This document shows positions 8,188-58,367 of a stretch of DNA of 64,000 nucleotides, in pieces. Made by a program: the position numbers and the translations under genes. Each line of letters starts with the position of its first letter. The first letter of the stretch is position 1. The DNA comes from Diplonema papillatum (Eukaryota > Euglenozoa > Diplonemea > Diplonemida > Diplonemidae), in the NCBI GenBank assembly GCA_030068145.1, contig JAPJBO010000048.1, positions 248,001-312,000 on the forward strand. The letters run 5' to 3'. The notes beneath the pieces were generated by a model. The model was given only the letters and a program-made list of their open reading frames with translations, ran no database searches and was not told where the DNA came from.

Positions 8188-8219
<32 letters not shown>

Positions 8220-8267
8220 ACCTAGACAAGCAGAATTGTCTAAGGGTTGGATTGTTCACCCACTAAC

Positions 8268-8311
<44 letters not shown>

Positions 8312-19369: not shown

Positions 19370-19595
19370 ACACAATCTGATTTGTTCTTCGCTTACACCA
19401 CCGTGTGTTGTTTTCTCACTCAGGACTTTTGACCTGTTGTGTTTGTGTGATTTGCCGTGTAGGGGTAGACCCGCATGACCTCACGTCCGTTCAACACGTG
19501 GTTCGGTAGTTACAGCACTTGGGATCCCTTCTGTTCTTTGTCGGGCAGCATCGTCGAGCATTTCCTTTCAAGCTGGCGCTTATGTAAAGAAAACA
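19370..19595 (+). repeat. Dispersed repeat, uninterrupted copy
   Basis: Parallels 30556-31192 inside eIF5B intron 2, sharing CAAACACAATCTGATTTG, GACTTTTGACCTGTTGTG and GGCAGCATCGTCGAGCATTT. It contains the single GTTGTGTT octamer that is duplicated around the MITE at 30788-31047. It therefore serves as the empty site for that insertion. Confidence 0.8.
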
Positions 19596-22500
19596 GCTGC
19601 GTCGCAGCTCTCGGCAGATAGAAAACGAAGGTGTGAGGGGGGCGTGTTGTATTCTTCGCTTTCGCCCCTTGGCATAACACGCGAACACACGTCATGTGAA
19701 GTCGCTCGGTCAAGTTGAGCAGGGGTTGCCTTGTAGCCCGTACCGGTCTGTTGTCCGCGTTTATATGTATTTTCTCGCAGTGTGGTGCTTGGATTTCACG
19801 GCACTTGCGGTGCTTCACGTGGTGCGGGTTGTTTCCGTCCTAAAATAAGGATTTTTTTTAGTTAAAATTCGCTTGAGATTCCGGGGGGTTTAGGGTCTCC
19901 GGGGTGACCTTCGTTAAAAAGGGGTCTCTTAGAGCAAGTAAGGGCTGTGTGGGCACGGGTTGTTTCTTTGGTGTACGCTATCGTTATGAGTAATGGCAGG
20001 CTAGTCATGTCCGGGACTGTTTGTGACCACCGGCACCAACCAGTTTGTGATGTTCTCTTGCGTGTTCGCTGTCGACAACATAGTATGGTGAAGTGTCGAT
20101 GAGATGTAGTTCTAGAGCCACCCAGAAAAACGCAACACGGTCAGCCAGCCTCCGGAAAATGTTAGTTGTTGCAGGGAAGCGTTGACTCCATCATCATTTT
20201 GTGCGTGAGGTCACCAATCCCAGGGCCTGCGTTGTGTGTGGGCTGCAGAGCATTTCCTATTCTGTGGTTGCGCATCTGGCGGCCTCCTCGACTGGGGGGC
20301 TTCCTACAAGGCAGGCGCTTATTCTCTAAAACGAAAAAGAAGATAACAGGGGAACCATACGTAAAGCAGCGCCGCGGCATTCAAAGGGAGAGGCTTTTTG
20401 TGGTTGCACGGCGTGTCTGCCTGTTGCAACACAGCGGGGCCAGCTTCAGAAGCTGGAGCCGAGGCTGGAGTTCAAGAAAGCGGGTGTCACCCGCTTTTCG
20501 GGCGTGCGTTTATACACGCGTTTTGGCTGTAGCACGCCCGCTTCACCAAGATTTTCGTTTTCTTTTTGGGGTGTGACGCAGACACACCCTCTTCAACTCC
20601 AGCATCTGCTGGGGCCGAACACCACCTGTACGCATTTACCTTTTTCTTAGTACTAACAATCTTGTGGGTTGCCCTTCAATGTATTATGCAGGCTAAAAAG
20701 ACGTAGGCAGCGTGTTTTGGTGGTTGATCAGAATTCCTTACCTGAATACGCACAGGGTAAATGCAAGTGGGAAAACGATCAACCGGCACGCACAAAACTG
20801 CATGTAAACACGAAAGAGAACGCTGGCAGCGTGCTTGGGAGAAGATTAGCCTATACGATCATATTCACTCAGGCACGTACGAACAAACTCACGCCTGCTC
20901 TTTTTTCCTCTTTTTCAGGGTCAAGGTTTCGCTTGGAAACTCCGGGGGTCGAGGTGACTTTCAGGTGGCTGTTTATCTTTTTTGTGTGGCGAAGCATGGG
21001 TGAAGGGGGCTGGATGCGAACTGAGGCCGCTGTGATGAAGCGGAAATGCTGCGGTTTGAATAGCCAGAAATGCTTGCGATGCATCGAAGGAATTCCACTA
21101 GGTGTCACGAACGACCCAATAGGCGGGGGGGGCATGTGTACGGTGTAGCTCCAAGCTGCAGCTGACACTTCGTCGCTAGGCACAAACGCGCAAGAAGGCC
21201 CGGAAGAAATCGGGAGCCGCGGGGTAGCACCCCCAGACCGCCACCTCTCTCCAGCACCTTCAGTCTGCACCTGCAATGACGCTCTGCATGCACGTCCCCT
21301 CGAGCCAATCCTTTCCACAAGTAACGGATCCACTTTTTCCGACATACGTATCCTTACATACGGTTAGGCCCTTTCAAACATGGAACCGCGGCAGGTGGTA
21401 ATCTTTTCGAGAGTATGCCAATACATCCGTTCCGTCTCACTTCCCCCGCTAGAAGATGATCAAAAATACCCTGGGGCCCCGCCAGATGCTTACTTTCGAC
21501 GGGAGGAGGGAAGAGGGAATGCATTCACCCCAACAGCATATCCATCCCTGCTGTGTAGTGCTTCAGCACGGTGTGGTAGACCACTACGCGGTGCATACGT
21601 ACTAACCGATGAGTAACACACTATGCCACCACAGCCTTTCTTGGGGTAGCTCCAGAAGGGTCATCCGTTTGGACTTAGCAACTGGCGGCCTCGAGTATTT
21701 CTTACTTAAGCAGGTGCTTGTTAAAAATTGAAGAAGAAGAAGAAGAAGAAGAAAGTTCGGTGGAAAGGCAGCAAAGGGCCGTCCTCGAAAATCTGTATGA
21801 TGCTAGCAAACAGGGAGAGTCCTTCCCGATTGTTCTGTTGCAGCAGAAGAAAGAAGAACGTTTCCGGAGTCGGGGCGTGCACTGACCAACGAAGTAACGG
21901 ACGATCCGCACCAACTGACCAAAGATGATGAAATTGGTAAGACAAAGGTTTCTTGTTCTTCGCATGGATGCACCTCTTTGCGGGGGGTTTTCCGAAGTAG
22001 CTTTTTAGAGTGAAAGTTCGCTTTTTTGTCAGCTCCGTTTTCTCGTTCATGTGCAACCGTTGTTCCGGAAATGTTCCCTTCAATACGAATGTACGATTAA
22101 AAAAGCCCAATGTACGATGAAGACAAAAATACTCGAGGGGCTGCCTTGTGCTTATTTTTCGGCGCGGTTTGAGGGGAGAACCGATACCCCCTTCAAAGTG
22201 GGTCTTGTTTATTGAACACGTACGCCCGCCACTAAGCCCAGATTGCCTGTGTTTCGTGTGAGCTACTTCACATTCCTCCTGTGAGATTTTTGCAACCGGC
22301 AGCCTCAAGTATTTCCTGCAAAGCAGGTGTTTAGACAAAAAAAAAAAAAAAAAAAAAAAAAAAGCAAAGCGAGACGAGCGTTGCGGCAACACAGGCCGTT
22401 GCCCGGACGCAATAGATGGAGACACCACGACGCGGTGCCAGTGCGCCGAAAACTCCACGCCCCACGTGCGCCAGCGTGGTAAGAACTGGCGCCTCTGATA

Positions 22501-23070: not shown

Positions 23071-24730
23071 AAATGTTTTCTTGGGTTTGAAGAGCGCGTG
23101 GTGCTTGCACCACTGAGGCCAGCTTTATTTAACCGCGGATAGTGAAGGATTGTTCAGGAAACGGTCCTGAGCGAAACCCGACCAGGTAACGACCATTTCA
23201 CTGTCTTCTTTGTTTTGTGATGCAAACATCACGAGGTGCTGTCCGAAGACACCACCCACGTGAGCACTGTTAAGCATTGAGTTCTTTTAAGTACATGAAC
23301 CACATGGAAGATAGCATGCACTGCTAAGCAGCGGTTGCCAGATACTCCCGTAGCACCTATTCACGGGTTTGCAGGGGTAAAAAGGATGGGGGGGTGGGGT
23401 AGGTACACCCGAAAAGCGGGTGTGTTTACACGTAGAAAACGCGCGTAAACATACACCGAAAAAGCGTAAACTCCAGCTATAGCTCCAGCTTCCGAGGCAC
23501 CGCCGCGTACGGCTAGCCTTATCCGCTGAGGCGGCGTAGCAGTAGGTCTGGTCTTGGTGCTGGAGTTCTTCGACGCGTCTCTTCGTACGTGGGCTTTGAA
23601 AGGGGGGGGGGGGGGGGTGGGGGGGTGCTATTTGTACGGATTCCGTTGAATCGGTGGTGATGAGGCTAGGGGGGGATGAGGGAAGAGGGGGACGCAAACG
23701 GATCACCGGCTAATGTTGCGGTTGCGCCACGGGCGGGCCGATGTGATAGATGATGCCCGCTATGACAGTCCGGTGTGGTGAGAGCGACAGGCCTGTGTGT
23801 GGGTGTGGAACTCAACGATGTAACATCTGGCGCGGAATATAGCCCAGTGTGTGTGGAGAGCTCGGAGCAGGATTTCTGCCCGACGAAGGACGCATTTCAA
23901 AGATTTGTGTCAGATCTTTCCAATAAAGCAAACGGCGACCACTTTCGACCATTATTTGGCCTCTCAACCGCGAAGTTGACACCCGCGAACTTTCTCGAAT
24001 TAGCTACCCCTATAGTGGTAGTTCGTATTTCTAACCTTTCCTTATCCCTCAAAACCAGCACCAATAACAACCGCCCCACCCACCGTGCAGAGAGGAGTCA
24101 CAGCACCCAGAAGCAGCGTGCCGGAAACTCAAAGCCGACTGGTGAAAGTGACACGCGGGCTCTACTTTGATTCAGCCTTTATTCACTTAACCACTTAAGA
24201 ATATGTTGCGGTGGTCTCCGCTGGTTTCCGGTAGTTTGTGCGCTTCGTCTACTCATGTATACCCGTTCACTCTTTTTAGAGTTATAGTGCTTTGTGTTAA
24301 CAATGCATTGTTGGTACTAAAAATTAGTAGTTGGCAGCGTACTACATGAAACTTACCGAAGCAGGTGAGTTCCGCTAGTGCGCACAAACAAAGCTGGCTA
24401 GCCAAAAAAGACTCCTGCCCGACACCACGAACACATTCGCAATGAATGTGGCCCGAAGGGCAGGTGGGGCGGGATCTTTCGGGACGGATAGAGCGTGGAA
24501 GGTTGCCAGCTTCTCCATCCGGCACTCGGCTCAAGAACTCTGCTTTCATCTTGCGGTCTTGCGTTTATTTAGACGCAGGCTAGAGGGGGAGAAAACAAAA
24601 CAAGTGCAAAGTGGGTCGTTTTTAGAGTTAAGGTACGCTTACGTCCGCCACTCAACCCAAATGTACCTGTGTTTCGTGCGGGCTACAGCGCATTCACCTC
24701 CTTTGAGATTTCGCAACTGGCAGTCTCCTC
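23071..24730. other. No gene recognised
   Basis: Holds a foldback-like ACACCCGAAAAGCGGGTGTG segment at 23405, a G-run of about 17 near 23600 that could form a G-quadruplex, and rRNA-like partial cores near 24275 and 24620. A plus-strand frame at 23775-24170 has no ATG and no recognisable domain. Confidence 0.45.
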
Positions 24731-24760
24731 ATGTATTTCCTACTAAGCAGGTGCTTGCAC

Positions 24761-24800
<40 letters not shown>

Positions 24801-24864
24801 GAGTTAGAGTGCAGGGACCATCTCTCCGAGGAGTATCCGGTCGCCCCACTACTATCCCGTACTA

Positions 24865-26320
24865 CTACGGCGGGCGCAAGTCGTTGCGCCGTGGGCGCGG
24901 AGCGAGCCGTGGCCCTGTCAAAGATGATTGTTGCACCGATGGTGGCGCAGCCGGGGACGTTCTGACTGGCGGACGAGACCGCCTGGCAGGCGTGTGTTGA
25001 CACGTTGTTTCGCGGGCTCTCCTCCTTTTGGCAATAGCCCGCCCTATGGCGGCGGCTAGCATCTTGACAGAGAATCTCAACTCCCACTGAACATAGGGTA
25101 CGTCGTGCGGATATTCAGGCACGGCATCGTTCCAGCTGTTACGGGCGCAAATTGTTTCCAGCTTGCCCAACATCCACTCGGTCTTCCGTCCAGCCGCAAA
25201 GCGTGGGCGGTGGGTACAACCCGGCATAGCCGGCGCACCAAAACAGCGGAGGGAACAGACCCCCTGCCGCCACTTCCCAGGGAAGGAGGCGACTCCTGAG
25301 TCGGCGCAGCACAGGTCGTTGATAGCTCGCATAAGGTACCCAATTTGCAGCCCCTTCTCGGCGAAGGTTCTCCCTGGGAGCTTCGAACGCGTAAATGCCT
25401 CAAAATCAAGCGCGAGTTCCACGCCTGTCGTCGGGAGAGGGTTGGAGCTGACCCACGATAGACTCCGCAGCCAGAAGACCAACGTCGCTGCGAAGCGGGT
25501 TCCGATGTTGGTCGTTAGCAACTTACGACTGTCCGTTGCTAAGTGTACGTCGTATTTCGTCGACGCACCTGAGGCGAGTTCCCAAGGGCGTGTTGCCGCA
25601 AGGCTCCGCTGCGCCTGCGCCATCTCGATTGAGATCGTACCGATCAGCCTCTGGATCTTCTCCAGGAGGTCAGGAGGGGTCCCGTAGGGGGGTATCCCTC
25701 TAATGCACAAGCACTGGGGCATGTCCCGGACCATCGCCTCAGCAATGCAAAACCGGGATCGCAGCTCGTTCCATCTACAACCTGGGCCCGGACATTGCCA
25801 GTAGTAATGCCACAGGGTCCCCGTCGCACCGCTGTCGCAGAACTCGCAGTCGCCGCTCCCCGAACCCCACTTCCTGCGGCACCATTCCCGTGAGTACACC
25901 GCTCCCCCAATACATCGACTGATCGCGGAACTCAATTTGTGGTCCGTCGCGCGGTTCAGCCAAAGCCGATTCATGGCACGTACGTCCACCCCTCCTTCGA
26001 TTCCGTCAAATCCTTGTCTCTGTGTGGTCAAGTAACGCCACGCGCGCAGACGCAGGCCCTCACGAAAGAGGTGTGGGGCTTCTTTACCGAGTAGCGACAC
26101 GGGAGTCCCGTCGAAAGACAGGGACTGGAAGCTGTGCTGCGTAGCCCGCAGGAATCTTATCTCCCGCAGAAGATTAGCCATAAGACCTACGGGACCCTTG
26201 ATAGACGAGTCGGCTCCCACGCGAAGGAGAGCGTCCATCCTCACCCGAAACCTCTCTTTCCCGTATTGTTTCACGAACGTGCGGAATAAGCTGAAACCTG
26301 AGGCGCATGCCGGATCACAC
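24865..26320 (-). pseudogene. LINE ORF2 C-terminal part, out of frame with RT
   Basis: Continues the LINE protein: an Arg-rich thumb/linker region, WLNRATDHKLSSAISRC, then the zinc-knuckle-like CEFCDSGATGTLWHYYWQC segment and a long C-terminal extension. No ATG begins it, consistent with a frameshift rather than a separate gene. Confidence 0.7.
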
Positions 26321-26371
26321 AGGTGTGCTTTTGCAACCAGGGAGAGAACCGCAAGAGGGCTCTTCGCCCGG

Positions 26372-26995
26372 TTAGATCGGGATCACGCAAGCGGAGAGTG
26401 CCGTTCGGAGCGTTGAGCTGTTGACGAAGCCACCTGTTGTATTCGTGCAGTAGGCCGCCCCGTAATACGCGGAGGCTGCGATCGTCTGCATTATGCGGAA
26501 CTTCGTGCGATGCATGAGCGGCGCCGCCTCAAGTCTGGCCGCGGCCTCGACCGTGGCGTTGGCCCTGCGGTTGTCAACGGGTCCCTCTGTGCCCAGGGGG
26601 ACACCCAAAACCTTCACTATTTTGCTCGATCGAATTATTTTGCGACCGATCACGAGGCGAGGAGGCTCTGGGGACGTCGAGAAGGAGACCGACTTGTCCT
26701 CGTTGAGGGCAAAGCCCGTCAGGCTGTCGAACACCTCTGTGGTTCGAATTCCCTCTTGGAGTAGCCTCGCAAGTTGCGACAGCAGGTACAGATCGTCGGC
26801 GAACGACTTCGGACTCACCCGAGCTCGGCTGACCAAGGCCTTCGAGAGAACAGAGAGGAGCGCGTTGATCAGGACCACTGATATCGGGCAGCCCTGGAGA
26901 ATTCCGTTGGTGACAGTGAACATCTCGCCGACTCCCAAGGGGTACCGGAAGCGACGCCTCAGGTGCTTGTATATGTGGCGTAAGGGTGCCAGCAC
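26372..26995 (-). pseudogene. LINE reverse transcriptase, partial
   Basis: Encodes RT motifs B (GILQGCPIS) and C (FADD) followed by the start of the thumb region. The frame ends at 26372 where a frameshift separates it from the downstream part. There is no endonuclease domain upstream because the element is 5'-truncated. Confidence 0.8.
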
Positions 26996-27198
26996 ACGCT
27001 CGTCGAAAAAGAAAGAGAGAGAGAGAGAGAGAGTTTGAATAGAGCATCTATTTGGTATCGGAAAGTAGGTGCGAGATCAGGCAAACCTTGTGCGCTAGCT
27101 TCGTTTAACCGTGAATCTAATAATCAGGGCTTACCCCACATTCTCGCTTTCATTTTATTTCCATTCTCCTCCTAATCATACACTACCCTCCGGGAAAA

Positions 27199-29306
27199 AT
27201 GCCGGTACACACGGGTAGCACGCGCCGCCGGGCCGCACGGACCAGCCGTCGGCTGATGGATCCTGACTGGGCGGCGGCTGAGGAAGCTGCCGACAAGGCC
27301 AACCGGGAGTGGCGGGTATGGAACCCTTGCGAGCCCGGGGAGTCGGCGGCCCCCCGTTCGCCGGCGGGAAAGGGGGAGAAAGCCGGTCGGAGCTGAAGAC
27401 CGGCATGGAACGGTCGTCTGGGGACTGGTCCCCCCTGGCCGACTGCAGACTTGAAGGACCTGGCGGGAGTACGACGGAGGCTCTACTCCCGCCTCCGGCT
27501 GGCAACGCCGCACAACGCGAAGACCCGGGAAGCGCTTCCACGAATGCACCCGGGCACTCGGAATTAGCTCATCCTACCCTTTGCGACAGCCGTTTCCCGA
27601 CACGACAGAAACAACCCTTGCCCGACGCCGGCTTCTCGCCTCGGCAGGTCAGGGGGTTGAAGTCGCGAAGGTCCAGGTTGCTCAGGGGGAGGAGGCTTTT
27701 CCTCCGGCTCCACCCCCATTTCTACGACCCTCCTACCGCAGTTCCTCTCGGGTACCTCCCACCAGAAACGAGAGGTCTCATTCCGGGCATCGGTGCCCCG
27801 AGATCTGCGAGGCCGCTAGACGTCACGGCAGTGCCGCCGATCGATCTCCGCAAGCTCCGGAGCCTCGCCGGCCCCGGGGCCCGCTTGCACGGCTTGCTTG
27901 ACCTCCTAACGGACGGGCACTCCTTCCGACGGAAGTTGTTGGGCACTCCTCTCGTGCCGGGTCGGAAGAGCGACGCGTTTGCCCGCCATGCGCAGACGCT
28001 GGAAAGCGTTGGGTTTGTGGAGCGCGTCCCCCGTTCGGAGCCGCTGAAGTGCGTCCTTCCGGCTTTTGCTGTTGAAAAGGGCGAACAGCACTCGCGGGCC
28101 ATCGTTGACGGCCGCCCGCTGAACGAGCTGATGGAGCCCCCGCCGAAGTTCAGCCTCTTGCGTGTCGACGAGGTCATCGCCAAGATGATGTCGAAGTCGT
28201 ACGCAGTCGTCGTTGACCTGAAGTCCTACTTCTTCCAGTTCCCAGTAGGACGGTCGACGTCAGCTTTCTTCGGGCTCCGCACAAGGAAGCTCGACGGGGG
28301 CGTGGCTCTGTATAGGTGGCGCCGGCTGACGATGGGCTGGTCTTTCTCGCCCGTGATTGCGCAGGACTCGGCGCTTGTCATCACGGAGCCTGCCGGGGAC
28401 GATAAGATAGTCTGGTACGACGACTGGGCCCTCGTTGAAGACTGTCCGGATGCGCTTCGCGCCGTGCGCGACCGAGTTTTGCGGCGTGCCCGCAAGGTGC
28501 GCATGACAGTCAACGACGAGAAGTCCGTCCTCGAGCCCAGCTCGAAACCAGTCGTCCTCGGGGTAGAATTCGACCTCGCGGCGAAGACGTACAGGCTGAA
28601 ACAGGAGTGGGCGAGAAAAGCGCACCTGCTGTTTTGCTCAGCTGAGTCGGCACAGATGACCGTGCGCGGGATCTGGAAGGTCGTCGGGACCGCCATCTGG
28701 GCGTGGACGGTGTGGGGCACGCCGCTTTGCAGAGTGAGCCCGGTGCTTGCGTGGATGGGGACACTGGCGCATCAGGTCCTAACAGGCACCCTGGGCTGGG
28801 AGTCGCTGGTTCGAGTGAGCGACGACGTCCTTCCTTTCCTTGCTGGGGTGAGGCGGCGTCTGTCGGGGAACCGGTGGGTCACGTTCGACATGCAGCAGCG
28901 GGATACCCTCGTCGAGGCATGGTCCGACGCCAGCATGCAGGGATGGGCCTGGCTAGTGGATTCCATGGCAATGTGGGGACCGTGGAGAGATATCCCGCAG
29001 CATATCTTCTTTGCCGAATTAACGGCGGCAAAGTTTGCTATTGCGTACGCGGCTTCGCGCTCTCCGCTATCGACAATAAGAATCTTTGTCGACAACTTGC
29101 CCGCCGTGAACTGTCTGAGGAATTGGAAGTCGAAGACCCAACTCGGGAACTTCATCCTCTGCCAGGTCCGCGACGTGTTGGAAGAACACCAATGTGTTCT
29201 CGAGACTGTGTGGGTTCCGACCGCTGAGCAATTAGCGGACGTATGGACACGAGACCCATACAGGCAAGGCATTCCGCCTCCTCGCGTCCCTTTCTGCATT
29301 GCGTGA
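27199..29306 (+). CDS. Retrotransposon RT-RNase H, expressed by -1 frameshift
   Basis: A short frame from the ATG at 27199 (65 codons, basic N-terminus, no recognised domain) overlaps a long frame in the -1 phase that runs to 29306. The long frame encodes reverse transcriptase: VVVDLKSYFFQFPV (motif A), RRLTMGWSFSPVIAQ (motif B) and WYDDW (catalytic YxDD variant). An RNase H follows, with SDAS, AELTAAK, VDN and LADVWTR carrying the acidic residues. No integrase, tyrosine recombinase or LTR is visible in the ~200 flanking bases, so the family (LTR or DIRS-like) is open. The frame is intact. It sits just upstream of the LINE and 190 bases from the 3' end of eIF5B, on the opposite strand to both. 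Confidence 0.8.
27366..27404 (+). promoter_or_regulatory. -1 ribosomal frameshift signal
   Basis: Slippery heptamer G GGA AAG at 27366-27372, in the correct phase for the upstream frame, then a 9-base spacer. A perfect 7-bp GC-rich hairpin follows (GCCGGTC at 27382-27388, GACCGGC at 27398-27404) with a 9-base loop. The stop codon of the upstream frame (27394-27396) lies in the loop. Slippage gives GGG AAA and enters the RT frame. Confidence 0.75.
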
Positions 29307-29499
29307 TGTCGGCCTATTTCTATTTTCTCACGTCTGAGGACGTTGCTAGAGGATTACGGGAAGTGCGTCCAGCCACCCTGTCGTCCAGTTGTCTAGCAGC
29401 TTTCGCTGAGCATTCCTTCCGACAGCTGGCGCTTATGTAAAAGAAAATACTAACAAACCTTTTGAATCGGGCCGCGCAAAGCCGGTATTCCGGAGACGA

Positions 29500-29975
29500 T
29501 CACAAGATGTTAAGCTGCTTCTTCAGCTTGAGGATGATGGCCCAGTCCTCCTTCTCCATCTCGCCCCTGAAGCTCTCCTTGAGCGCGTCGATCGAGTCAC
29601 GGGTGATCTCGCTCCAAAGGTGGTCGGTCTCGTCGATTTGCCGCCCGAAGGTCACTGTCTCCGTCTTGATCTTCACGGCCACCTGCTGACCCTTCCGCGA
29701 AACCTTCTGCGGCTTGTGCTCCTTCTCGACAGCCTCGACTTTGCCCACGTGGAACGGTACGGTTTTGCCGTTCTCGTTCTTCTTCCAAGCGAACAGCGGA
29801 GTGCCAACCCGCAGCTGGCCTTGCACGACCTCCATGCCGAGGAGGATCGGGTTCTTCTTGTTGAACGCCTTCCCTGGCAGCGTGATCAGCTCGCATGGGA
29901 ACACAGCACTCACCTTGTTCTTGTCCTGGATCGTGTTCGTGTAGTCCTCCAGGTACTTGTTAAACTTGTCTTGAA
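29500..29975 (-). CDS. EIF5B: eIF5B exon 3 (C-terminus)
   Basis: Encodes the last 158 residues of translation initiation factor eIF5B, domain IV, which contacts Met-tRNAi and eIF1A. The acceptor CCCACAG is followed by TTCAAG. The first two bases complete the codon begun in exon 2, giving IIYH-LQDKFNKYLEDY across the junction. Diagnostic segments are VFPCELITLP, GMEVVQGQLRVGTP, FGRQIDETD and SIDALKESFRGEM, all in the order seen in human and yeast eIF5B. The stop is TGA at 29500-29502. Confidence 0.95.
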
Positions 29976-30207
29976 CTGTGGGTTTGTGTTTAAGTCCGTG
30001 GCTTTAAGTTGGTAACGGCTGAATCGAAGTATCGCCCACTTGTCATTTCCACCAGTTTTCTTGTATCCCACCACAAGGCAGCACAGACCTTTCCCTCAGC
30101 GGGCCACCTGCCCACTGACTTCGCAGAATGAAAAGGTGGGTCCCCCAGACCCTCCCCCTTGTAGTCGAAAGTCTGGATTGTGTGAAACTTTCTCCGCCAC
30201 GGCATCG

Positions 30208-30283
30208 AACGGTGGCTCAGTTGACGGGGCGACGGACTTCTGTCCCGAGCGCCCGGGTTCAAACCCCGCCGGTGACACTTTTT
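30208..30283 (+). tRNA. tRNA-like sequence (Arg-TCT-like), pseudogene or SINE head
   Basis: The A-box-like TGGCTCAGTTGACGGGG and B-box-like GGGTTCAAACCCC are spaced as in a tRNA. The loop CTTCTGT would read TCT, and a TTTTT run follows at 30279. The D stem and most of the T stem pair, but the acceptor stem does not. This is therefore a tRNA relic or the head of a tRNA-derived SINE rather than a working tRNA. Confidence 0.4.
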
Positions 30284-30787
30284 CACCAGACTTCCTTTAC
30301 CAGTTTCTGCACTCTTCAAACCATCGCGCCGGACGTCGAGGGTCGCCCTTTTTACAACCCTCAAACGGTCGCTTTGGTCCAAAAAATGAGGACAACCCTC
30401 AGACGTCAGTTTTGGCTGGTGGAGTGGTCTAGCTGTAGATGTCTAAGTGGGAAACACCAACAGGATTTGTTGACATGGTGTTGAAACGTCAATTGGTAAA
30501 CCCGTACCGTTCGGGCAATCTCTTTCGTGTTTACAATGCTTTGTTACTACGAAAACACCCGACGTAGCTGCTTCGACTCCCAATGGAAGGGACTCCCCGT
30601 GTAGGTAGAGGGGAAAATACAATACAAACACAATCTGATTTGTTCTTCGCTTGCACCACCGTGTGTTGTTCTCTTACTCAGGACTTTTGACCTTTACACC
30701 ACTGTGTGTTGTTCTCACACTCAGGACTTTTGACCTTTACACCACTGTGTGTTGTTCTCTCACTCAGGACTTTTGACCTGTTGTGTT

Positions 30788-31047
30788 CAGTGTGCGCGCG
30801 ATCAGCCGGCTTATCGGCTGATTAAATTTCGAGATATTTTTTTTACCGGCAGACTCGCACAAAATCAGCCGATTTTCAGTGTAAGATTTGGCTATGCCGC
30901 CCATGGAGCGGGGCTTGATGCACCAGCATGATGTTGTCGTAAAACCCTTCTGATCGGCAGACCTTCCAAAAATCAGCCGGCTGGATTTTTTCAAGAACTT
31001 TTTTTTCCGGCTGAAATCAGCCGCTTTTTTCCTCAGCGCGAACACTG
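30788..31047. mobile_element. hAT-like MITE, 260 bp, with 8-bp target duplication
   Basis: Ends are CAGTGTGCGCGCG on the left and CGCGAACACTG on the right, imperfect terminal inverted repeats starting CAGTGT. The octamer GTTGTGTT flanks both sides (30780-30787 and 31048-31055) and occurs once in the uninterrupted paralogue at 19430. The interior holds repeated ATCAGCCGG motifs in both orientations. There is no coding capacity. Confidence 0.85.
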
Positions 31048-31206
31048 GTTGTGTTTGTGTGATTTGTCGTGTCGCATGACCTCACGTCCGTTCAGCACGT
31101 GGTTCGGTAGTTTCAGCACTTGGGATCCCTTCGGTTCTTTGTCGGGCAGCATCGTCGAGCATTTCCTTTCAAGCTGGCGCGTATGTAAAATAAAAGGACG
31201 GCATAC

Positions 31207-32314
31207 GGTGGTAGATGATGTCGGCGGTGAAGATGGTGATCTCCTCCTTGTCGGCGAACTCCTGCGCCTCCTTCGTGACGGCCACGTCGAAGCAGAGGAT
31301 AACCGCGTATTTCGGGTGCTTCTCCTTCATCCCGACGACGCGCATGATCGTCTTTTTGTGCAGGTCGCCGACGCCGACGGTGGAGACCGGGATTTTGCTG
31401 TCCTGCAAGAACACGAGCAGCGCCTCGAGGGCGCCAAGGGTGGACGCCTGGACAGCCACGCCGAAGTCGCCTTGGGTGCGCTTGATGACGGTGCCGAGCT
31501 CCCGCATGACTTCTTCCTGCAGCTCTTCGATGTCGTCGCCGTCCTTCACGACGAGCATGGGCGTGCCGGGAACGGCGTCTTCGAGGCCCGTGGCGGCTAT
31601 TTTGATCCCCTGGGCGGCCTTGATGGCCTTGTGGTGGATGTATTCCCCCTTCACCCGGATTTCCTTCATCGGGTGCGGCGTCAGCAACGCGCGGACCTGC
31701 GTGACGATCGGCCCATTCAACCCGCAGATGAGGATCGTGTCGCCCTCGCGGAGCGTTCCGTTGACGAGGATGACGTCGATGGTCACCCCATGACCCTCGA
31801 TTTTTTTGACCTCCAAAACGGTGCATTTCAGCTCATCCGTATACATGAGCTGCGCGTTCATATGCCGCTGCGTCAGCTGCACCATCAGCATGAGCAAGTC
31901 GGGGATCCCCTCGCCGGTGTGGGCTGACGTCGGCACCAGCGACACGTTCTTCAAGAAGTTCTTGTTTTCGGTGTACAGGCACGAGTTCAGCCCTTGCTCG
32001 GAAAGCTCCGCCGCGACGCCGTCCATCCGCGAGCGGAACTCCTGCTTGACGTAGTCCTTCTGCTTCTTGAGGGTCAGCGGGAACGGCATGTCCTTGTGTG
32101 GCACCCACTCGAAGAGTCGGTCGATCTTGTTCAGCGCCACGACGAACGGGCACTTTCGCTTCTTCAGGAGCTGGATAGACTCCTTGGTCTGGGCCTCGAG
32201 CCCGTGCATGATGTCAACGACCAGAATGGCGATGTCACACAGCGCAGACCCTCGGCCTCGCAGGTTGGCAAAGGACTCGTGCCCTGGAGTATCGATCACA
32301 AGCAGGCCCGGTAC
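31207..32314 (-). CDS. EIF5B: eIF5B exon 2 (GTPase and domains II-III)
   Basis: 1108 bases encoding 369 residues and one extra base. The acceptor CGCTCAG precedes GTACCGGGC. The exon starts [15 protein letters not shown], which carries GTPase motif G3 (DTPGH), and continues with NKID (G4, about residues 364-367 of the joined protein). It then covers domains II and [59 protein letters not shown] and IFTADIIYH. It reads in one open frame with strong codon bias. It joins exon 1 in phase 0 and exon 3 in phase 1, and both joins restore conserved family sequence. Confidence 0.96.
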
Positions 32315-32459
32315 CTGAGCGGTGATGGTGGGAGGGGGTTAGGCTAGCACACTGTTGATGCATACAAGATAAGAGTTTTGGGTTAGAATGCAAAAAGAAT
32401 CTGTAGCGAGAACTTCGCACAGCCTTCAGGGGTGTGGTTGGTTCAAAAGAAATCTCGCT

Positions 32460-32760
32460 CGGAGAATCCCGTGGGAGATTTCCTCGTTTGATCCAAGAAG
32501 CCATCGATGGTCGGTACTTCTGAATGCACCTGTGGCTACTGCCTTGTCGTGTTATAATTGCATCGAGCCATGTTCTTGCTTTAACTCTCATCCTCTGAAC
32601 CCAGGTAAATTCCATGGCTGGTGTTGCCATCCATCAAACAGTCGTGGGAGAACCCGTGGGAGATATCCCAAGAGAACGTCGGCGACGGTCCGTACTTCCC
32701 AATGTAGCAGTTATCACTGCCTTAGCCAGTGTTCTCGTTGCATCGCTCTAAATTGTCACG
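32460..32760 (-). repeat. Dispersed repeat related to 58.9-59.35 kb
   Basis: Contains AAATTCCATGGCTGGTGTTG and GGGAGAACCCGTGGGAGATA. The complements occur in three tandem units at 58930-59345. Two diverged units are recognisable here (32460-32600 and 32600-32760). Confidence 0.7.
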
Positions 32761-32805
32761 CAATTGGGTGATCCTCTTCCCGCCCAAGCCTATACGGGGG
32801 TATAT

Positions 32806-33008
32806 GGGACCCTGTATACCACCAGTGTATGTGTATGTGTATGTATAGCACAGCCCGTATACACCACCACGCCACGTAGGTACTGTATACACCCATCATA
32901 CCGGTATAGTGTAGTGTATATACGTACTGCACAGCGAGTGCATATACACAACCTCAGACCACCAGATCGGGACCTGTGGGACCCAATATGGGCACATACG
33001 GGACCCTG
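32806..33008 (+). repeat. Single diverged 189-bp satellite monomer
   Basis: Same landmarks as the array at 41326-42649 (GACCCTGTATACCACCAGTG, CACCACGTAGGTACTG, CCTCAGACCACCAGATCGGG) but with substitutions and small insertions. It lies on the other side of the DIRS element from the array. Confidence 0.85.
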
Positions 33009-33204
33009 TCAGCGCTCTTGTTAAGGATCAGCCACTTTGGCCGGATGGCCGGATAAACCAGACCCCCCCCCCCCTTCTACAGTGCAGTTGCCTTCGAGGC
33101 TGGGTGGTCAAATTCTCTAAGGTGAAATGGTCAAATTTCCCTGCCAAAAGTGGGCCCACAAAAATTTTCCAAAGTGTGGTATTTGGGGTATTTGGGGCAA
33201 AAAA

Positions 33205-33388
33205 TAACTATTTATTACTAGGACTAAAAAAAAGCCTTTTAGTCCCGAGGAAGGGTTTATTGTCCCGAGGAAGTTTTTTTTGCCCGAGGGGCCCCCGAAG
33301 GGGGACCCGAGGGCAAAAAAAACTTCCGAGGGACAATAAACCCTTCCGAGGGCCTGTAAAAGGCTTTTTTACCTAGTAATACGTAATT
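33205..33388. repeat. Long foldback (MITE-like)
   Basis: Near-palindrome with ~70-base arms. TATTACTAGG, AGCCTTTTAG, GGAAGGGTTTATTGTCCC and TTTTTTTTGCCC on the left are mirrored by GGGCAAAAAAAA, GGGACAATAAACCCTTCC, AAAAGGCTTTTTT and CCTAGTAATA on the right. It can fold into one long hairpin. Confidence 0.8.
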
Positions 33389-33589
33389 TTATTTCTGGAC
33401 GGCGCCGAGCCCCGAGGCGCAGCCGAGGGACGAGGCAAAAACACACCGTGAACCGAAGTGAGAGGGAAATTAGACCTTTTTGCACTTCTGAGCACAAACT
33501 TCCAAGGTATAATCTAGGAAAGGGGTCAGATTCACAAGCTAACGTGCAGAATGGGTATTTTTTCTACTCCATCTTGATGTTGACGTAGC

Positions 33590-33870
33590 GTGGTGCGTGA
33601 CTGGTGTGCAACAGCTGCCTGAGCTGCATGGTAGGCGACTGGTGCAGCAAATGTCTGTGTTGCACAGGGTACAACTTACCCAGTAACTCCTGAGTTGCAG
33701 AGGATGCGACCAGTGCAGCAACTGTGTGTTGCACAAGGTGTATCCGGCAAAGCAACTGTCTGAGTGCAGAGAATGTGACCGGTGCAGCAAATGGTTGGGT
33801 TGCATAGGGTGCTGCCGGCACAGCTACTGTCTGAGTTGCAGCGGATGCGACCAGAGCAGCAACTGTCGGT
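33590..33870. repeat. Degenerate ~60-bp tandem repeat
   Basis: Recurring GTGCAGCAA(C/A)TGT and GAGTTGCAG..GATGCGACC motifs at about 60- and 120-base spacing. It is too diverged to define a clean unit. Confidence 0.55.
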
Positions 33871-34132
33871 GTGGGCGGCGGTGGTGACTTTGCAATGAGG
33901 CCGGTTTGATAGTCTCTGCAACCTGGTAACGTGTTTGATTTTTGTCGACGTTTTTGAGGAGTTTTACAGCAAATGCAAGCCATTGAGGTGTTTCCGACGA
34001 ATTTTGAGTAGCGCAACGGCCTCAAAACATGTTTTTGTAGGGGTCCAGTACCATCATGGGTGCACTGGGTGTATCACCTTTGCCAGTTTAGTGCATTAGA
34101 ATGTCCAGGAAATAAATTTTTTTATTCCTAGG

Positions 34133-34472
34133 TTAAAATACCTCCCTCGAGTGGGTCACTCTGAGCCGTGGTTCCCCAACTCATTCCGCTATTTTAACGT
34201 ATGTTTAATTCGCCTTCCGACAAACAGGTCTCTTGCGGTTACGGCCCTTAGCTGGCCCGCTAAGCTATGGGACAGAGTGCCGACCGGCGAAGTCGCCCCG
34301 CGAGGCTACAGAGAGCCGTGGCCAGCGGCAGCCTGCACGACGGCAACAGCGACGATGGCGCTGGTGCACAACCGCGGCAGTTGATGCGACGCTCGAAGCT
34401 CTGGCGGGCTCGCGAGCTTGTGCTTGCTGGCCGTCGGCGTCTTTCACCTCGCATGTCCAGAGGGATTGTCCC
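34133..34472 (-). repeat. DIRS split repeat A1
   Basis: 340 bases matching A2 at 35959-36298, with one visible difference (GAGTGCCG here, GAGAGCCG there). It forms the 3' end of the element in coding orientation. Confidence 0.95.
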
Positions 34473-34517
34473 TTCGCCGAGTCAGCCCCCAAGCAGGCCA
34501 GGGGCCGCAACCAAAAC

Positions 34518-35948
34518 CTATGTCGCAGGTGGCGGAAAGGGAACCGTGGGTAAAAGCCCGCTCACTGCCTGGTTCCTTGCAGTGTACATGTGGGCTAGAG
34601 AGGTCGGGTTGTAGAAACGCACCGCCTCTACACAGTCCGGGTCCCTCAGGACCTTTTCTCCATAGTGCGTGACCATGTCCCCAGATGCCCAGTCACCCAT
34701 CTTCTGGACTTGTATGGGGTCCATGCCCGCCTTCAACAGGGTGCAGCAGCCCCCTATCCTGGCGCTGTGAGTCAGGAATGGCACCCTGGAGCGTGCAGGG
34801 GCATGGCCTCGATTGAGGGGCTGCAGGATTCCTCGAGTCCTCGAGTTCCCTAGGAGGGCATCTCTGAACGAGGCGTAGATGGGGAAAGGGCACAGGAGCC
34901 TCTTCCCCTGCGCCATGCGTTTCAGCAAGGTGAATACTTCGACAGGGCAGTACCGGATCGCTTGCGGAGCGCCATCGGGCGCTTCGGGCAGTAGCAACGG
35001 CGGAGCCAGCTCTATCTTCTCAAAAGTGAGGTGCCTGCTGCACGTGCCCTTCGACTTCGACATACCCCACTCCACCCTCACTTTGTCCTTGCTGACTTGG
35101 ACCATGTCAGTCAGAATCGACTGCATGCTCGAGGACCTCAGGAGGGTGAAGTGCTCGCCCAGCAACTGCAGGGCAGCGCCGTACTCGCCTACCGTCCGCA
35201 CGAAACCGAAGACCTTCCGAAACTGAGCGGCGCCTAGGGGCTCGCCGCTTTCTGGATCAGGAGACGCCTTCTTCAGCGCCCTGATCATCCTGCGGACGTC
35301 GCCAGCGGGATCGTCGAGTACCCAGCCGCCTGCGATGTTCTCGGCTACAATGGCATTGATGACATTGTGCGGAGCCCTGTATCCATCGCCTTCCATACTC
35401 GACAGGTATCCTCCAAAGATTTCCAACCTCCTCACCGTCGTAGGGTATGGCTGGACACCCTCGCCCTCACACCACTCCCTGTACGTGCCCGTGTTGGAAC
35501 GGTACACCCTCTTCGAGCTCGCCGCTGTATACAGGCCTCTCATGCGGGAGCGGGCGTCATCCGGAGCAACATCTTCGATAGCGCGCTTAAGCGCCTGCCG
35601 CCGTGACGTTGACCTTCCCCCCGTTGCTGATGCCGGCATGCATGGCACGGAGGGGGCCTGTTTCCGATCCCGCAACGAGTCCTGCAAGCGCTCGTACAGT
35701 TCCGGGCGAGCCAAAGGCGCTGGAAGTGCCCACAGCGGTAGCATCTCCAGGGCCTGAAGGGACATACCATCCGGAAGGCTCTGCAAACTCCTGCTCACCT
35801 CACTCCACTCATCCCCCGTGAACAAGCTCCTTAGGGAAGCACACTGATCCATCATCTTTTCAGGGGCAGGGCGGGCGGGAAGAAAAGATCGAGCTCCTGT
35901 TTGGTAATTTCGTTCCCTGCCGGGGCTTTGCACGAAATTAGCTGACAT
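34518..35948 (-). CDS. DIRS tyrosine recombinase (YR)
   Basis: A 476-residue protein from the ATG at 35948, expected to integrate circular DIRS cDNA by site-specific recombination. The catalytic set is visible: first Arg in FTLLRSSSM, the H-x-x-R box in THSARIGG, Trp in GDWAS at the second-histidine position, and the nucleophile Tyr in THYGEKV. The first ~24 residues (MSANFVQSPGRERNYQTG...) are encoded by repeat B1 and are identical to the start encoded by B2. Length and motif spacing fit DIRS recombinases. The stop lies just outside A1. Confidence 0.92.
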   Translation of the reverse strand: MSANFVQSPGRERNYQTGARSFLPARPAPEKMMDQCASLRSLFTGDEWSEVSRSLQSLPDGMSLQALEMLPLWALPAPLARPELYERLQDSLRDRKQAPSVPCMPASATGGRSTSRRQALKRAIEDVAPDDARSRMRGLYTAASSKRVYRSNTGTYREWCEGEGVQPYPTTVRRLEIFGGYLSSMEGDGYRAPHNVINAIVAENIAGGWVLDDPAGDVRRMIRALKKASPDPESGEPLGAAQFRKVFGFVRTVGEYGAALQLLGEHFTLLRSSSMQSILTDMVQVSKDKVRVEWGMSKSKGTCSRHLTFEKIELAPPLLLPEAPDGAPQAIRYCPVEVFTLLKRMAQGKRLLCPFPIYASFRDALLGNSRTRGILQPLNRGHAPARSRVPFLTHSARIGGCCTLLKAGMDPIQVQKMGDWASGDMVTHYGEKVLRDPDCVEAVRFYNPTSLAHMYTARNQAVSGLLPTVPFPPPAT

Positions 35949-35958
35949 TAAACTCTCA
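35877..35958 (-). repeat. DIRS split repeat B1
   Basis: 82 bases identical to B2. It supplies the ATG and first codons of the recombinase and directly abuts A2. Confidence 0.95.
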
Positions 35959-36298
35959 TTAAAATACCTCCCTCGAGTGGGTCACTCTGAGCCGTGGTTC
36001 CCCAACTCATTCCGCTATTTTAACGTATGTTTAATTCGCCTTCCGACAAACAGGTCTCTTGCGGTTACGGCCCTTAGCTGGCCCGCTAAGCTATGGGACA
36101 GAGAGCCGACCGGCGAAGTCGCCCCGCGAGGCTACAGAGAGCCGTGGCCAGCGGCAGCCTGCACGACGGCAACAGCGACGATGGCGCTGGTGCACAACCG
36201 CGGCAGTTGATGCGACGCTCGAAGCTCTGGCGGGCTCGCGAGCTTGTGCTTGCTGGCCGTCGGCGTCTTTCACCTCGCATGTCCAGAGGGATTGTCCC
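35959..36298 (-). repeat. DIRS split repeat A2
   Basis: 340 bases, second copy of A1. The B1-A2 junction is the internal complementary region expected to template circle formation in PAT-like elements. Confidence 0.95.
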
Positions 36299-36388
36299 AA
36301 TGGCCCTTATCCCAATGGACCTTGGCGCTGGAAAAACTAGGGGGGAACGGAAGTCAAGGGAGTTTGTAGTGTTTCGGTCTTTCCTTCC

Positions 36389-38368
36389 TTACGGCTCTGA
36401 GGACGCGGAAGCGCCACCGAGAACTTCCGCAATTGCCTCGTCGACAACCCGCTGCTCCACCCGCCGCCTCTCTGGCAAAAGGCCCCGGATGGGCAGCTCT
36501 GCCCAGGCGTGGCCGAGACGGCTGGGAAGGTCTGAGAGGTTGTCCTCCCCCGGTACCCTTTCGAACCATGCGCTGGCCCTCGATCTCGCTAGCCTCTCCC
36601 AGAAAGCGTGGACAGGGACCAGCAATTCCTTAGCCTTCGTCCGACCTTGAATAAGACTACCCAGCACAACGCTATTGTCGACCCACACTGAGACTGCAAA
36701 ATCGACCCGGTGGCCAAACCAGATCGCGAAAGCAACCGCGACGGCTACAAACTCAAAGTGATGGATTTTGAGAGTGGAACCCGAAGGGGGTACGGGGTGC
36801 GAGTAGTACTCTATTCTAGTAGGTACTCCGTCTACAATCGTGGCCAGAACCGCGCCCAGACCAAAAAGGCATGCATCGGTGAGCAGGACGTACCTGGTTC
36901 CTATGCCAGGCTGCGTTCTTCGGAGAGGCACCGTCCTTCCAAAGCACCGCTCTCCGGCGAACAAAGTCCTCACCCACCACGATAAGGAAGCCCGAAGATC
37001 CCTTCCTAGCTTAAAACCAGCAAACGTAGACGACGCATTGGCCCTCCTGAAGATCGCCTGAAGGGGAACACGGCCTACTCTCCCGAAGAGCGCCGACGTA
37101 GCGAAAGCAAGTTTCCCCGCCAGAGATGCTGCTTCACCTGGAGATAAGGAGTCGCGCCTCAGAACGCACTCAAGCATGTGTATCAGCCCCTTTCTTCTAG
37201 GATCCGAGAGCCTGACCTCGATTCCTCCCGATGTGATCGTGAAAATGAGACCGAGATGACGAAAACGGTTCCCCTGGGACGTCTTTTCTGCGTTGAAAGA
37301 TGTGAGCAGTATATCCTGGAGCAGTTCGAGGGTATCGGCCAGGGCTCTGCTATCTGCGGCAAGCGTCGGAGATGCAAAGTCATCGTAATACTGACATAGG
37401 GGCAGCCGCAGACCACGTCTCACCACCCTCGCCAGGACCTTGGCGAAGGCATTATAATGCACCACCGCAGCTGTCTCTCCGAAGGACAAACGTTCCATCC
37501 GAAAAGACTTTATCTCCCCGTCCTCTGGGCTCTCAGCGATAACACACCTGCAGACAATGTCGTTCCTAGCGCGAAGCTGGCGATACGCGTCCTTGTGGTC
37601 GAGCCCTATGGACTGGAAAGTGGCATCAGGATTACACTCCAGCGCCCCGACAGCTACTTGCCGGGCCACTTCCACGAACACGTCGGCCGTGTCCAGCTTC
37701 ACCGGGGTCGACATCTGCACAGCTTTGTTTACTAAGGCCATTCGCCCATCATCGCACGCCCGCTCCTTCACCCGGGAACCTTCCTCGTCAAACTTCGTCT
37801 GACGAATGACGAACCTTCGAAGGTACACAGCATTCGCTGGCGGACAAACTTCGACCATGAAGCCTGCGGCGAGCTCCTTTCGCACCGAGCGCCAGATCGC
37901 CACCTTGTCCGTGCTGCCGGTTGACCTGATAGCCCGCACTGACCGCGCGAGGACCTCCGGTTGACGTCGAATCAGCTCCTCCACGGAAATCTCAGGGGCG
38001 ACTCGAGGCGCCGGGGCGTACAGCCCCTCGTAACCCACCGAGCCTGACATCGGGCAACCCGTCCTCAGGTGATGCAGCAGGTCATCTACGCCCACAATGC
38101 CCAAATCGCAGAGCATCTCGCAAAGGAGCTCCACGTGACACGGCTTTCCGTCGTAGATAGGGAGCTCCGCAGCCCTCCTCCTCCAGTGAGCCAAGAACCG
38201 CAAGCGCATGCGCTGTGCTTCCGCAACTGGCGTGGTAGCCGCGTAGCTGATGGCCGCGGCCATCTCCTCGTCCAGCTGAGGCATCTCCTTTATCGCCGGC
38301 ATCGAGTCAAACGCTTCCTCAGCGAACTTGTGCCTCCTCAGCACATCTTGAATCTCGTCCTGTGACAT
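36389..38368 (-). CDS. DIRS reverse transcriptase-RNase H
   Basis: A 659-residue protein from the ATG at 38368. It should copy element RNA to DNA and remove the RNA strand. The RT part shows GLDHKDAYRQL (motif A), RLSFGETAAVVHYN (motif B position) and QYYDDFA (catalytic YxDD). RNase H follows with TDACLFGLGAVL, EFVAVAVAFAI, WVDNSVVL and GEDNLSDLPSR, supplying the four acidic residues. No methyltransferase domain of the DIRS1 type is evident, though the ~170 N-terminal residues before RT are unassigned. The frame is intact. It ends 90 bases before A2. Confidence 0.92.
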   Translation of the reverse strand: MSQDEIQDVLRRHKFAEEAFDSMPAIKEMPQLDEEMAAAISYAATTPVAEAQRMRLRFLAHWRRRAAELPIYDGKPCHVELLCEMLCDLGIVGVDDLLHHLRTGCPMSGSVGYEGLYAPAPRVAPEISVEELIRRQPEVLARSVRAIRSTGSTDKVAIWRSVRKELAAGFMVEVCPPANAVYLRRFVIRQTKFDEEGSRVKERACDDGRMALVNKAVQMSTPVKLDTADVFVEVARQVAVGALECNPDATFQSIGLDHKDAYRQLRARNDIVCRCVIAESPEDGEIKSFRMERLSFGETAAVVHYNAFAKVLARVVRRGLRLPLCQYYDDFASPTLAADSRALADTLELLQDILLTSFNAEKTSQGNRFRHLGLIFTITSGGIEVRLSDPRRKGLIHMLECVLRRDSLSPGEAASLAGKLAFATSALFGRVGRVPLQAIFRRANASSTFAGFKLGRDLRASLSWWVRTLFAGERCFGRTVPLRRTQPGIGTRYVLLTDACLFGLGAVLATIVDGVPTRIEYYSHPVPPSGSTLKIHHFEFVAVAVAFAIWFGHRVDFAVSVWVDNSVVLGSLIQGRTKAKELLVPVHAFWERLARSRASAWFERVPGEDNLSDLPSRLGHAWAELPIRGLLPERRRVEQRVVDEAIAEVLGGASASSEP

Positions 38369-38454
38369 CCGTCTAGACGATGGGGTAGCGTCAGCGACGC
38401 ATCCCCGTAGGGAAGAAGACAGCGCAGAGCACTGTCTGGGATCGTGCCGATGAG

Positions 38455-38492
38455 ACGGCTGATGATGATGATAATGATGATAATGATGATAG
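38455..38492. repeat. (ATG/ATA)n microsatellite
   Basis: A GATGATGATAATGATGATAA tract just after the Gag-like stop region, between the Gag-like and RT frames of the DIRS element. Confidence 0.85.
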
Positions 38493-38575
38493 TGCTGAAG
38501 AGAAGGTAGAACTTCGGCTGCCAGCCGATTGACGGGGAAGGGAACAGAGAGGGTCGCTTCCGAGACATCCGGAAG

Positions 38576-39760
38576 TCAAATACCTGGCTTAGACCTCTTT
38601 GCCGGAGGCTCGTCGTCAGGCTGAGAGCGGTTCCGTCCACGGCCAACTGCGCGCGTCGGGACCCTTGGCTGACGCTCATGAAGTGCCCGGGCCTGACGAG
38701 AGACTGGCAACCTGACCTCCCGCTGGATCGGAGGAGGGGCCTGAGGAGGAAGAATCTGAAGTTGGTGTTCTCGCCGTTCTCTCACACCTAGTGTGCCTGC
38801 ATTCATGTTGAGGCTCAGGACAGTAGCGGTATCTAGGCAGAGCAGGCGTTCGGAGGCTGCAGTGAGGATGATGGTCCCCGGAACCGCCCTCCTCTCGCTC
38901 GCAAAGCGTCTCCTGGCTTGCTCGTCGTACTCGCGAGCCAAGGAGCACCCGAATCTGGCCGCGAGATCGCACACCAACGCCGGGTAGCCGAAGACAACAG
39001 GGAGGGGGTTCCTCCCGAACGCCCCTGTTAGGCCGGCGATGACCAGGTACCGTTGAAGGGCGCAAACAGTCTGCACGAAGGGGCGATGGCTGGCCGTAAT
39101 CCACCCCGCCGTGACTGGTGTGTACGGCTCCTTGTGGATGTCCACGTATGGCAGTGCGACATCCGGCTCCCTCTCTACCTTCCTCTGAAACGCGTTCAGC
39201 TCGGTGTGGCTGGGAGTGAGCTCCCTGGGGAGATGCATAAGACCATGGATGGCGATCTGCTCGGCTACATCCAGGACGGTCAGCGGCTGGTCCTTTGAGC
39301 GGGCTGCCCTCTGGTCGTCGCGCCTGGCGTCGCTGTCCTTTTCCCGCTGCTCGTTGCAACGGAACCACTTCTTGGCAACCGAGCGGAACTTGGGCGGAAG
39401 GTCAGACGGCAAACTGTCGATGCCATCCACTGAGGAGCACTCCAAGAGGGAGCGATATGCAAGTCCATCGAGGGTCGTTGCGGCTACCACGAAGCCCGCG
39501 GGATCCTCCTGATAGAGGCCTGCCGCCCATGACTCGAAGATGACCGCGTGAAGCACGCGATGCCTCCTGGTCACCGTTGCGCGGCTTGCCCCCTTCCATT
39601 CCTCATTGGCCGCCTCCCGTATCTTCCTATACTGCACATCCGCGACCATCTGCAGCCACCCTTCGAGCACCGACAGCTCTTCAAAGACGTTGCTGGCTGA
39701 CTCAATTGGAACGCTTCGTAGCGCCGCGACTCTACCATCCCAGAACTGGCCAAGCGACAT
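38576..39760 (-). CDS. DIRS Gag-like protein
   Basis: A 394-residue protein from the ATG at 39760, first in the coding order of the element. No zinc knuckle is visible. The body is helical and mixed in charge (SLGQFWDGRVAAL, VADVQYRKIREAANEEW). The C-terminus is Pro/Arg rich and ends in a basic tail (DEPPAKRSKPGI) suited to nucleic-acid binding or nuclear import. The Gag role is inferred from position and tail only. Confidence 0.6.
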   Translation of the reverse strand: MSLGQFWDGRVAALRSVPIESASNVFEELSVLEGWLQMVADVQYRKIREAANEEWKGASRATVTRRHRVLHAVIFESWAAGLYQEDPAGFVVAATTLDGLAYRSLLECSSVDGIDSLPSDLPPKFRSVAKKWFRCNEQREKDSDARRDDQRAARSKDQPLTVLDVAEQIAIHGLMHLPRELTPSHTELNAFQRKVEREPDVALPYVDIHKEPYTPVTAGWITASHRPFVQTVCALQRYLVIAGLTGAFGRNPLPVVFGYPALVCDLAARFGCSLAREYDEQARRRFASERRAVPGTIILTAASERLLCLDTATVLSLNMNAGTLGVRERREHQLQILPPQAPPPIQREVRLPVSRQARALHERQPRVPTRAVGRGRNRSQPDDEPPAKRSKPGI

Positions 39761-40026
39761 GTCGGATTACCTGCCTCCTTTGTTCCTAACAGCAAGCAGA
39801 TCACCGAGAGCACGGTTGCCGAATACCAAAGAGAAACAACCTCCTCCAGCTGAGACAGCAAGTAGATCACCGTGAGAACGGTAGCACGCGAATACCAGAG
39901 CGAAACAACCGTTTCAAGCCGAAACAAAGAAGAGTCACAATACCTGGGCTACCATACCCAAAAAAAACCGTCCCGGCTAAGATCGTGGATCTCTTCGGGT
40001 GGCTGGCCACTCAACCGGGAAGATCC

Positions 40027-40915: not shown

Positions 40916-41005
40916 CCTGGCAAGGGGGGAGGGATTGCCCAGGGGGCTGCCCCCCCTGAAGAATATCAGTTCCGGAAAGCGACAGGGCCCGCAATACATC
41001 CAACA

Positions 41006-41087
41006 GGGAAGAAAAGATCGAGCTCCTGTTTGGTAATTTCGTTCCCTGCCGGGGCTTTGCACGAAATTAGCTGACATTAAACTCTCA
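41006..41087 (-). repeat. DIRS split repeat B2
   Basis: 82 bases identical to B1, forming the 5' end of the element in coding orientation. It carries the same ATG and codons as the recombinase start. Here they run on into the leader and 53-bp repeats for about 98 codons. Confidence 0.95.
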
Positions 41088-43910: not shown

Positions 43911-43940
43911 TCAAAAGAAGTAAAGGAAGAGGAAGTAAAC

Positions 43941-51504: not shown

Positions 51505-51539
51505 GCCGGCGGCTTTCCCTCGCAAATCGTGTTGCTAGG

Positions 51540-58357: not shown

Positions 58358-58367
58358 TGAAAAATGA

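Follow-up and report, generated by a model that had tools for sequence, protein, structure and literature searches.

In the passages of one survey that bear on the matter, eukaryotic sites of -1 ribosomal frameshifting avoid a final G in the slippery heptamer and usually place a spacer of 5-9 nucleotides (nt) behind it (PMC7618472); as far as the relevant excerpts go, the heptamer G_GGA_AAG is documented for phage lambda, E. coli constructs, and a haloarchaeal virus (PMC7618472, PMC5009743). A different route to a second product, in which termination at one open reading frame (ORF) is coupled to reinitiation at a closely placed start, is described, in the part of the account that covers it, for SART1, a retroelement of the non-LTR (non-long-terminal-repeat) type, and there the required structure lies downstream (PMC5972666). 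Extracts of two further papers give long ORF overlaps as possible in DIRS1-like elements and as usually not present in Ngaro and Viper (PMC6681497, PMC3266345). Here we consider a reverse transcriptase (RT) element in a 64,000-nt stretch of the euglenozoan Diplonema papillatum (contig JAPJBO010000048.1, positions 248,001 to 312,000; hereafter the window), in which a short leader ORF overlaps the RT frame at a GGGAAAG heptamer followed by a hairpin. We tentatively favor, at a probability of roughly 45%, a reading in which the RT is made by initiation at ATGs of its own, with the slip-site motif being coincidental or of minor effect.

Overlapping frames and the slip-site motif

The leader ORF (27199..27396, plus strand), which provides the zero frame of the claimed shift, has 65 codons, with A at -3 of its ATG and a further in-frame ATG at 27256. 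It overlaps the RT ORF (27309..29306, plus strand), both frames being open over 27282..27396 of the plus strand, as judged by the stops in each. The opening of the RT frame thus precedes the heptamer by 84 nt. The frame contains two plus-strand ATGs: 27318..27320, which stands 48 nt before the heptamer and opens the RT frame ahead of the slip site, and 27405..27407, which directly follows the stem and stands 8 nt past the leader stop. Each is flanked by G at -3 and +4, a favorable context for a start. Depending on whether it is counted from GTG 27309, ATG 27318, or ATG 27405, the RT ORF comprises 665, 662, or 633 codons, respectively; given the two ATGs, the RT protein can start without a shift.

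The heptamer GGGAAAG (27366..27372, plus strand) falls into codons as G GGA AAG when read from ATG 27199, with 56 codons preceding its GGA, and accordingly shows the X_XXY_YYZ phasing of a eukaryotic -1 signal. Behind it, on the same strand, come an all-purine spacer of 9 nt (27373..27381) and a perfect hairpin of 7 base pairs (bp) (27382..27404; arms 27382-27388 and 27398-27404), whose 9-nt loop holds the TGA stop of the leader (27394-27396). The original prediction, which had placed a heptamer in phase, a 9-base spacer, a perfect 7-bp hairpin, and a zero-frame stop within the loop at this spot, was thus an accurate sighting with its anatomy right, although it passed over the RT frame being open from 27282 and having ATGs at 27318 and 27405; its interpretation as a frameshift may or may not hold.

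That prediction also had the -1 frame opening into more than 640 codons of RT-RNase H, of which the length and the RT are borne out: the -1 frame runs from 27372 for 644 codons until a stop at 29304, and the RT domain is recognized by the Pfam family RVT_1 with both the whole ORF (E 1.8e-9) and the piece 27999-28850 (E 3.1e-10), inside which the match lies. In a PDB search with the RT, the best chain was one listed under POL protein (E 1.1e-5); the RTs of human immunodeficiency viruses 2 and 1 (HIV-2, HIV-1) came next. The RNase H did not find such backing: for 28851-29303, the matches up to E 10 were two unrelated weak families in Pfam and none in PDB. The acidic motifs in the RT ORF that we take to be RNase-H-like were picked by eye.

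Proposed initiation at the RT's own ATGs and its alternatives

From the observed frames, ATGs, motif, RT domain, and eukaryotic host, we infer that the leader is dispensable and that the RT would be obtained by ordinary initiation at AUG 27318, and perhaps also at 27405. Scanning ribosomes might bypass the leader ORF of 65 codons to reach these AUGs, or transcription might start inside the leader. The leader would then do no more than damp the output of RT, in the role of an upstream ORF that overlaps the RT frame. The slip site and hairpin would be a coincidence in G+C-rich and purine-rich sequence, or would exert a minor effect. We count in favor of initiation at the RT's own ATGs that GGGAAAG ends in G and that the host is a eukaryote. 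Moreover, a downstream product in need of a shift, as expected of a eukaryotic -1 signal, is not what is found, with ATG 27318 lying before the heptamer in the RT frame.

Weighing against initiation at these ATGs are the order of the starts, the rarity of the motif, and the codon usage of the leader. ATG 27199, with its A at -3, comes before both RT-frame ATGs, unless transcription begins after 27199. Among 20,000 shuffles of a 160-nt region, an in-phase heptamer (Y = A or T) arose in the overlap in 12% and some perfect hairpin of at least 7 bp in 20.5%, and the heptamer together with a stem of at least 7 bp placed 4-10 nt downstream in just 22 (0.11%). In the whole window, both strands included, 515 such heptamers occur, 11 of them with a stem of at least 7 bp; by our grouping, these are six in one tandem array, three from a single A-run, a TTTTTTA near 63245, and the present GGGAAAG. 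Comparable ORF overlaps (an ATG ORF of at least 40 codons with a -1 frame open for 150 codons past its stop) number 17 in the window and cover 3332 nt in total; they contain two in-phase heptamers and one complete arrangement, the present one; scaling the 0.11% by overlap length, which is our own arithmetic and ignores composition, would give about 0.03 expected in the window. The arrangement is rarer than chance readily gives, and this is suggestive rather than conclusive because the limits for stem and spacer were chosen after the case had been seen. This rarity speaks for programmed -1 frameshifting, whereby ribosomes starting at ATG 27199 would slip on G GGA AAG under stimulation by the hairpin and fuse about 58 leader residues to the RT, with the remainder stopping at TGA 27394. 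All its anatomical parts are in register, the 9-nt spacer falls within the usual range (in the part of PMC7618472 that gives it), and the codon bias described below changes frame near the slip site. On the other side are the final G in a eukaryotic host, which the same part of that source has eukaryotic slip sites avoiding, the RT frame that is open from 27282 with its own ATGs, and the leader itself: when a 460-nt region was dinucleotide-shuffled 2000 times, 730 of the shuffles contained an ATG ORF of at least 65 codons, and the leader therefore needs no explanation. The hairpin gives a divided picture. A 45-nt piece folds at -14.4 kcal/mol (z -2.88), with 0 of 200 shuffles equally stable, but this advantage vanishes as flanking sequence is added, with 26 of 200 shuffles equally stable for a 68-nt piece (z -1.06) and 174 of 200 for a 171-nt piece (z +1.11). 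Computed within eight different stretches, the probability that the stem is paired came to about 0.93, 1.0, 0.97, 0.0, 0.9, 0.36, 0.58, and 0.13, reaching at least 0.9 in four of the eight, and competing folds with downstream sequence exist; opening of the upstream part by the ribosome would favor the short fold. On balance, we regard frameshifting as unlikely, and calling the module complete, as the original prediction did, as too strong in light of the final G, the upstream RT-frame ATG, and the chance-like length of the leader.

Codon usage was scored with three tables: one drawn from the RT (27750-29303), one from host exons (a condensin-like ORF of 1422 codons and two exons of eIF5B), and one from both combined. 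Whichever is used, the frame of the leader outscores the other two in 27199-27366; its lead with RT training, 14.4 bits, was equalled by 28 of 2000 shuffles, and the lead with host and combined training by 161 and 65 of 2000, respectively. In sliding windows, the preferred frame switches from that of the leader to that of the RT near 27340-27370. Codon usage hence lends mild support to a coding leader, a case weakened by the preference for the same frame in most windows centered on 27130-27190, largely upstream of ATG 27199, and by the RT frame being without clear preference at about 27490-27580 under either table. In a 56-codon test over 27405-27740, the RT frame likewise has no clear lead under any of the three tables. 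For the place of the frame change, codon usage gave no clear optimum. Under at least one of the tables, places from 27343 to 27391, and 27310 if host codons are used, score no more than 3 bits less than the top place; the position of the slip scores 2.0 (RT), 5.8 (host), and 4.9 bits (both) less than the top place. Therefore, it cannot separate a slip from an indel or a separate start. A one-base indel, by which a leader and RT that were once a single ORF were put out of frame through mutation or assembly error in the A/G run, would leave the same trace: leader-frame bias giving way to the RT frame is the remnant it predicts, and the junction lies in an A/G run of what we judge to be a slippage-prone kind. 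However, an indel leaves unexplained a perfect hairpin at the right spacing, and the RT frame has no clear lead over 27405-27740; we regard this explanation as quite improbable. A slim chance attaches to coupled termination-reinitiation, in which ribosomes would terminate on the leader stop, TGA 27394, and resume at ATG 27405, aided by the stop-spanning hairpin in the manner reported for SART1. The 8-nt gap from stop to restart and the context of ATG 27405 suit it, as does the precedent of coupling at a close stop and start set out in the pertinent part of PMC5972666, but the hairpin lies over the stop rather than downstream, ATG 27318 is available as well, and an in-frame ATG this near a stop is, by our uncomputed estimate, not rare.

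Were the slip real, a eukaryotic ribosome would shift on a G-ending heptamer, contrary to the rule that known sites suggest, and frameshifting would be employed by an element without a Gag-sized upstream protein. Initiation at the RT's own ATGs, which seems likelier, would instead carry a useful caution: heptamer, stem, and overlap can align in G+C-rich sequence, and in-frame ATGs upstream of a slip site need checking first.

The RT element and its surroundings

The leader (27199-27396) is without a Pfam match up to E 10 and is, in our judgment, short for a Gag, both of which we count toward initiation at the RT's own ATGs. No recombinase, integrase, or Gag-like protein was recognized in the leader or the RT ORF, the two ORFs that the scan covered. 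LTRs or other terminal repeats were not found: no 9-mer is common to 27000-27330 and 29300-29560, and none of the nine families of direct repeats in 26300-31200 flanks the ORFs with one copy per side. tRNA genes were looked for and none found. An AlphaFold single-sequence model of 27801-29303 had a mean predicted local distance difference test score (pLDDT) of 34.3 and was unusable.

The window holds no second copy of the RT by tblastn (best other match E 0.70). Scans of viral contigs with three queries confirmed no relatives; in genome contigs, one query returned none and another a single locus in a metagenome-assembled genome of a Lachnospiraceae bacterium, whose 33-residue match we attribute to chance. 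Because the scans rely on short peptide patterns taken from a single sequence, only close relatives are within their reach, and they may leave out records of the genome to which the window belongs. Kinship with the RT of the tyrosine-recombinase element described below was not accepted (BLASTP E 0.60; nothing with phmmer; a colinear hhalign alignment over 503 columns, but at E 0.44).

Behind the RT ORF, 29390..29447 of the plus strand resembles the tails of SINE-like repeats (short interspersed nuclear elements), with E 2.3e-5 against a profile of six tails from the window built without it; two of these six also aligned with 29390-29447. LINEs (long interspersed nuclear elements) and their SINE partners share 3' ends. 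The RT element may have its 3' end in common with SINEs, or else a truncated SINE may sit just behind the ORF; a single copy cannot decide between the two. A further combination, to which we give very little credence, would join this tail to the slip: a lambda-type shift on G_GGA_AAG would add the leader of about 58 residues, yielding two forms of RT from one RNA (one fused, the other unfused from 27318 or 27405), and the same RT, with which no LTR, integrase, or recombinase is seen, would mobilize the neighboring SINE-like repeats that share its 3' tail.

Counting that at 29390-29447, the window has eight SINE-like 3' tails, the others being 10110-10162, 19534-19595, 20268-20333, 21675-21732, 22289-22344, 24709-24768, and 31135-31196. 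They show, by eye, a small AAGCAGGTGCTT-like inverted repeat and an A-rich end, and six of the eight went into the profile. All eight and a ninth piece (10452-10484, E 0.007) are on the plus strand; the lone minus-strand match has E 0.23.

Two other retroelements lie on the minus strand. One, a tyrosine-recombinase element (34133-39760) that appears to lie in an eIF5B intron, has ORFs at 38579-39760 (no Pfam family), 36392-38368 (RT-RNase H; RT_RNaseH_2 E 1e-4), and 34521-35948 (recombinase; Phage_integrase E 8.3e-5), both Pfam matches being below the family cut-offs. Direct repeats of 340 bp, 99.7% alike (34133-34472 and 35959-36298), flank the recombinase ORF, and this recombinase belongs with the RT at 36392-38368, not with the RT ORF at 27309-29306. 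The other (about 24784-27004) looks 5'-truncated, with RVT_1 matching from profile position 112, and has (GA)n runs on both sides; its 377-bp end recurs, 99.5% alike, at 58366-58741 and there too adjoins a (GA)n run. As both abut such runs, this suggests that the element inserts into (GA)n microsatellites.

The eIF5B gene lies in pieces on the minus strand (29503-44846), viz., 43914-44846, likely N-terminal (GTP_EFTU E 6.4e-4, below the cut-off), 31172-32299, and the C-terminal 29503-29913; more than 11 kb separate the first two, an interval that would represent a repeat-filled intron. Fragments of eukaryotic large-subunit ribosomal RNA at 8157-8307 and 54386-54677, the second in two matched pieces, cover overlapping regions of the molecule. 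Large tandem-repeat arrays occupy 4390-7145, 41325-42661, 44996-46081, and 51410-53999, with some copies more than 99% alike (41325-42661); an ORF of 508 amino acids over that array (41223-42749) is probably repeat-derived.

Comparison with described systems

Going by the excerpts on it, the gpG/gpGT site of phage lambda has the same heptamer in the same phase as this locus, but it operates with bacterial ribosomes and in other genes, whereas the host here is eukaryotic. In the portion of the literature that treats the setting of the lambda site, E. coli has one tRNA-Lys for both AAA and AAG, again in contrast to the eukaryotic host here. The letters GGGAAAG in the part of PMC8951182 where they occur belong to a primer and have no bearing on this site. 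The gag-pol signals of retroviruses and totiviruses share with this locus a heptamer, a spacer of 5-9 nt, a downstream stem-loop, and an overlapping -1 pol frame, but differ from it in that the heptamer here ends in G, the upstream ORF is not Gag-sized, and the RT frame has an upstream ATG of its own. SART1, as presented in part of its account, resembles the locus in a stop near a downstream ATG with local structure; its stop and start overlap, whereas here an 8-nt gap separates them, and the RT here matches retroviral RT chains in PDB. The DIRS order (DIRS, PAT, Ngaro, and VIPER/TATE) offers a likeness, seen by eye, in an RT followed by an RNase-H-like tail, but, unlike in that order, the scanned parts of this locus yielded neither a tyrosine recombinase nor split repeats nor a Gag-like ORF alongside the RT, and the RT has no significant match to that of the tyrosine-recombinase element in the window.
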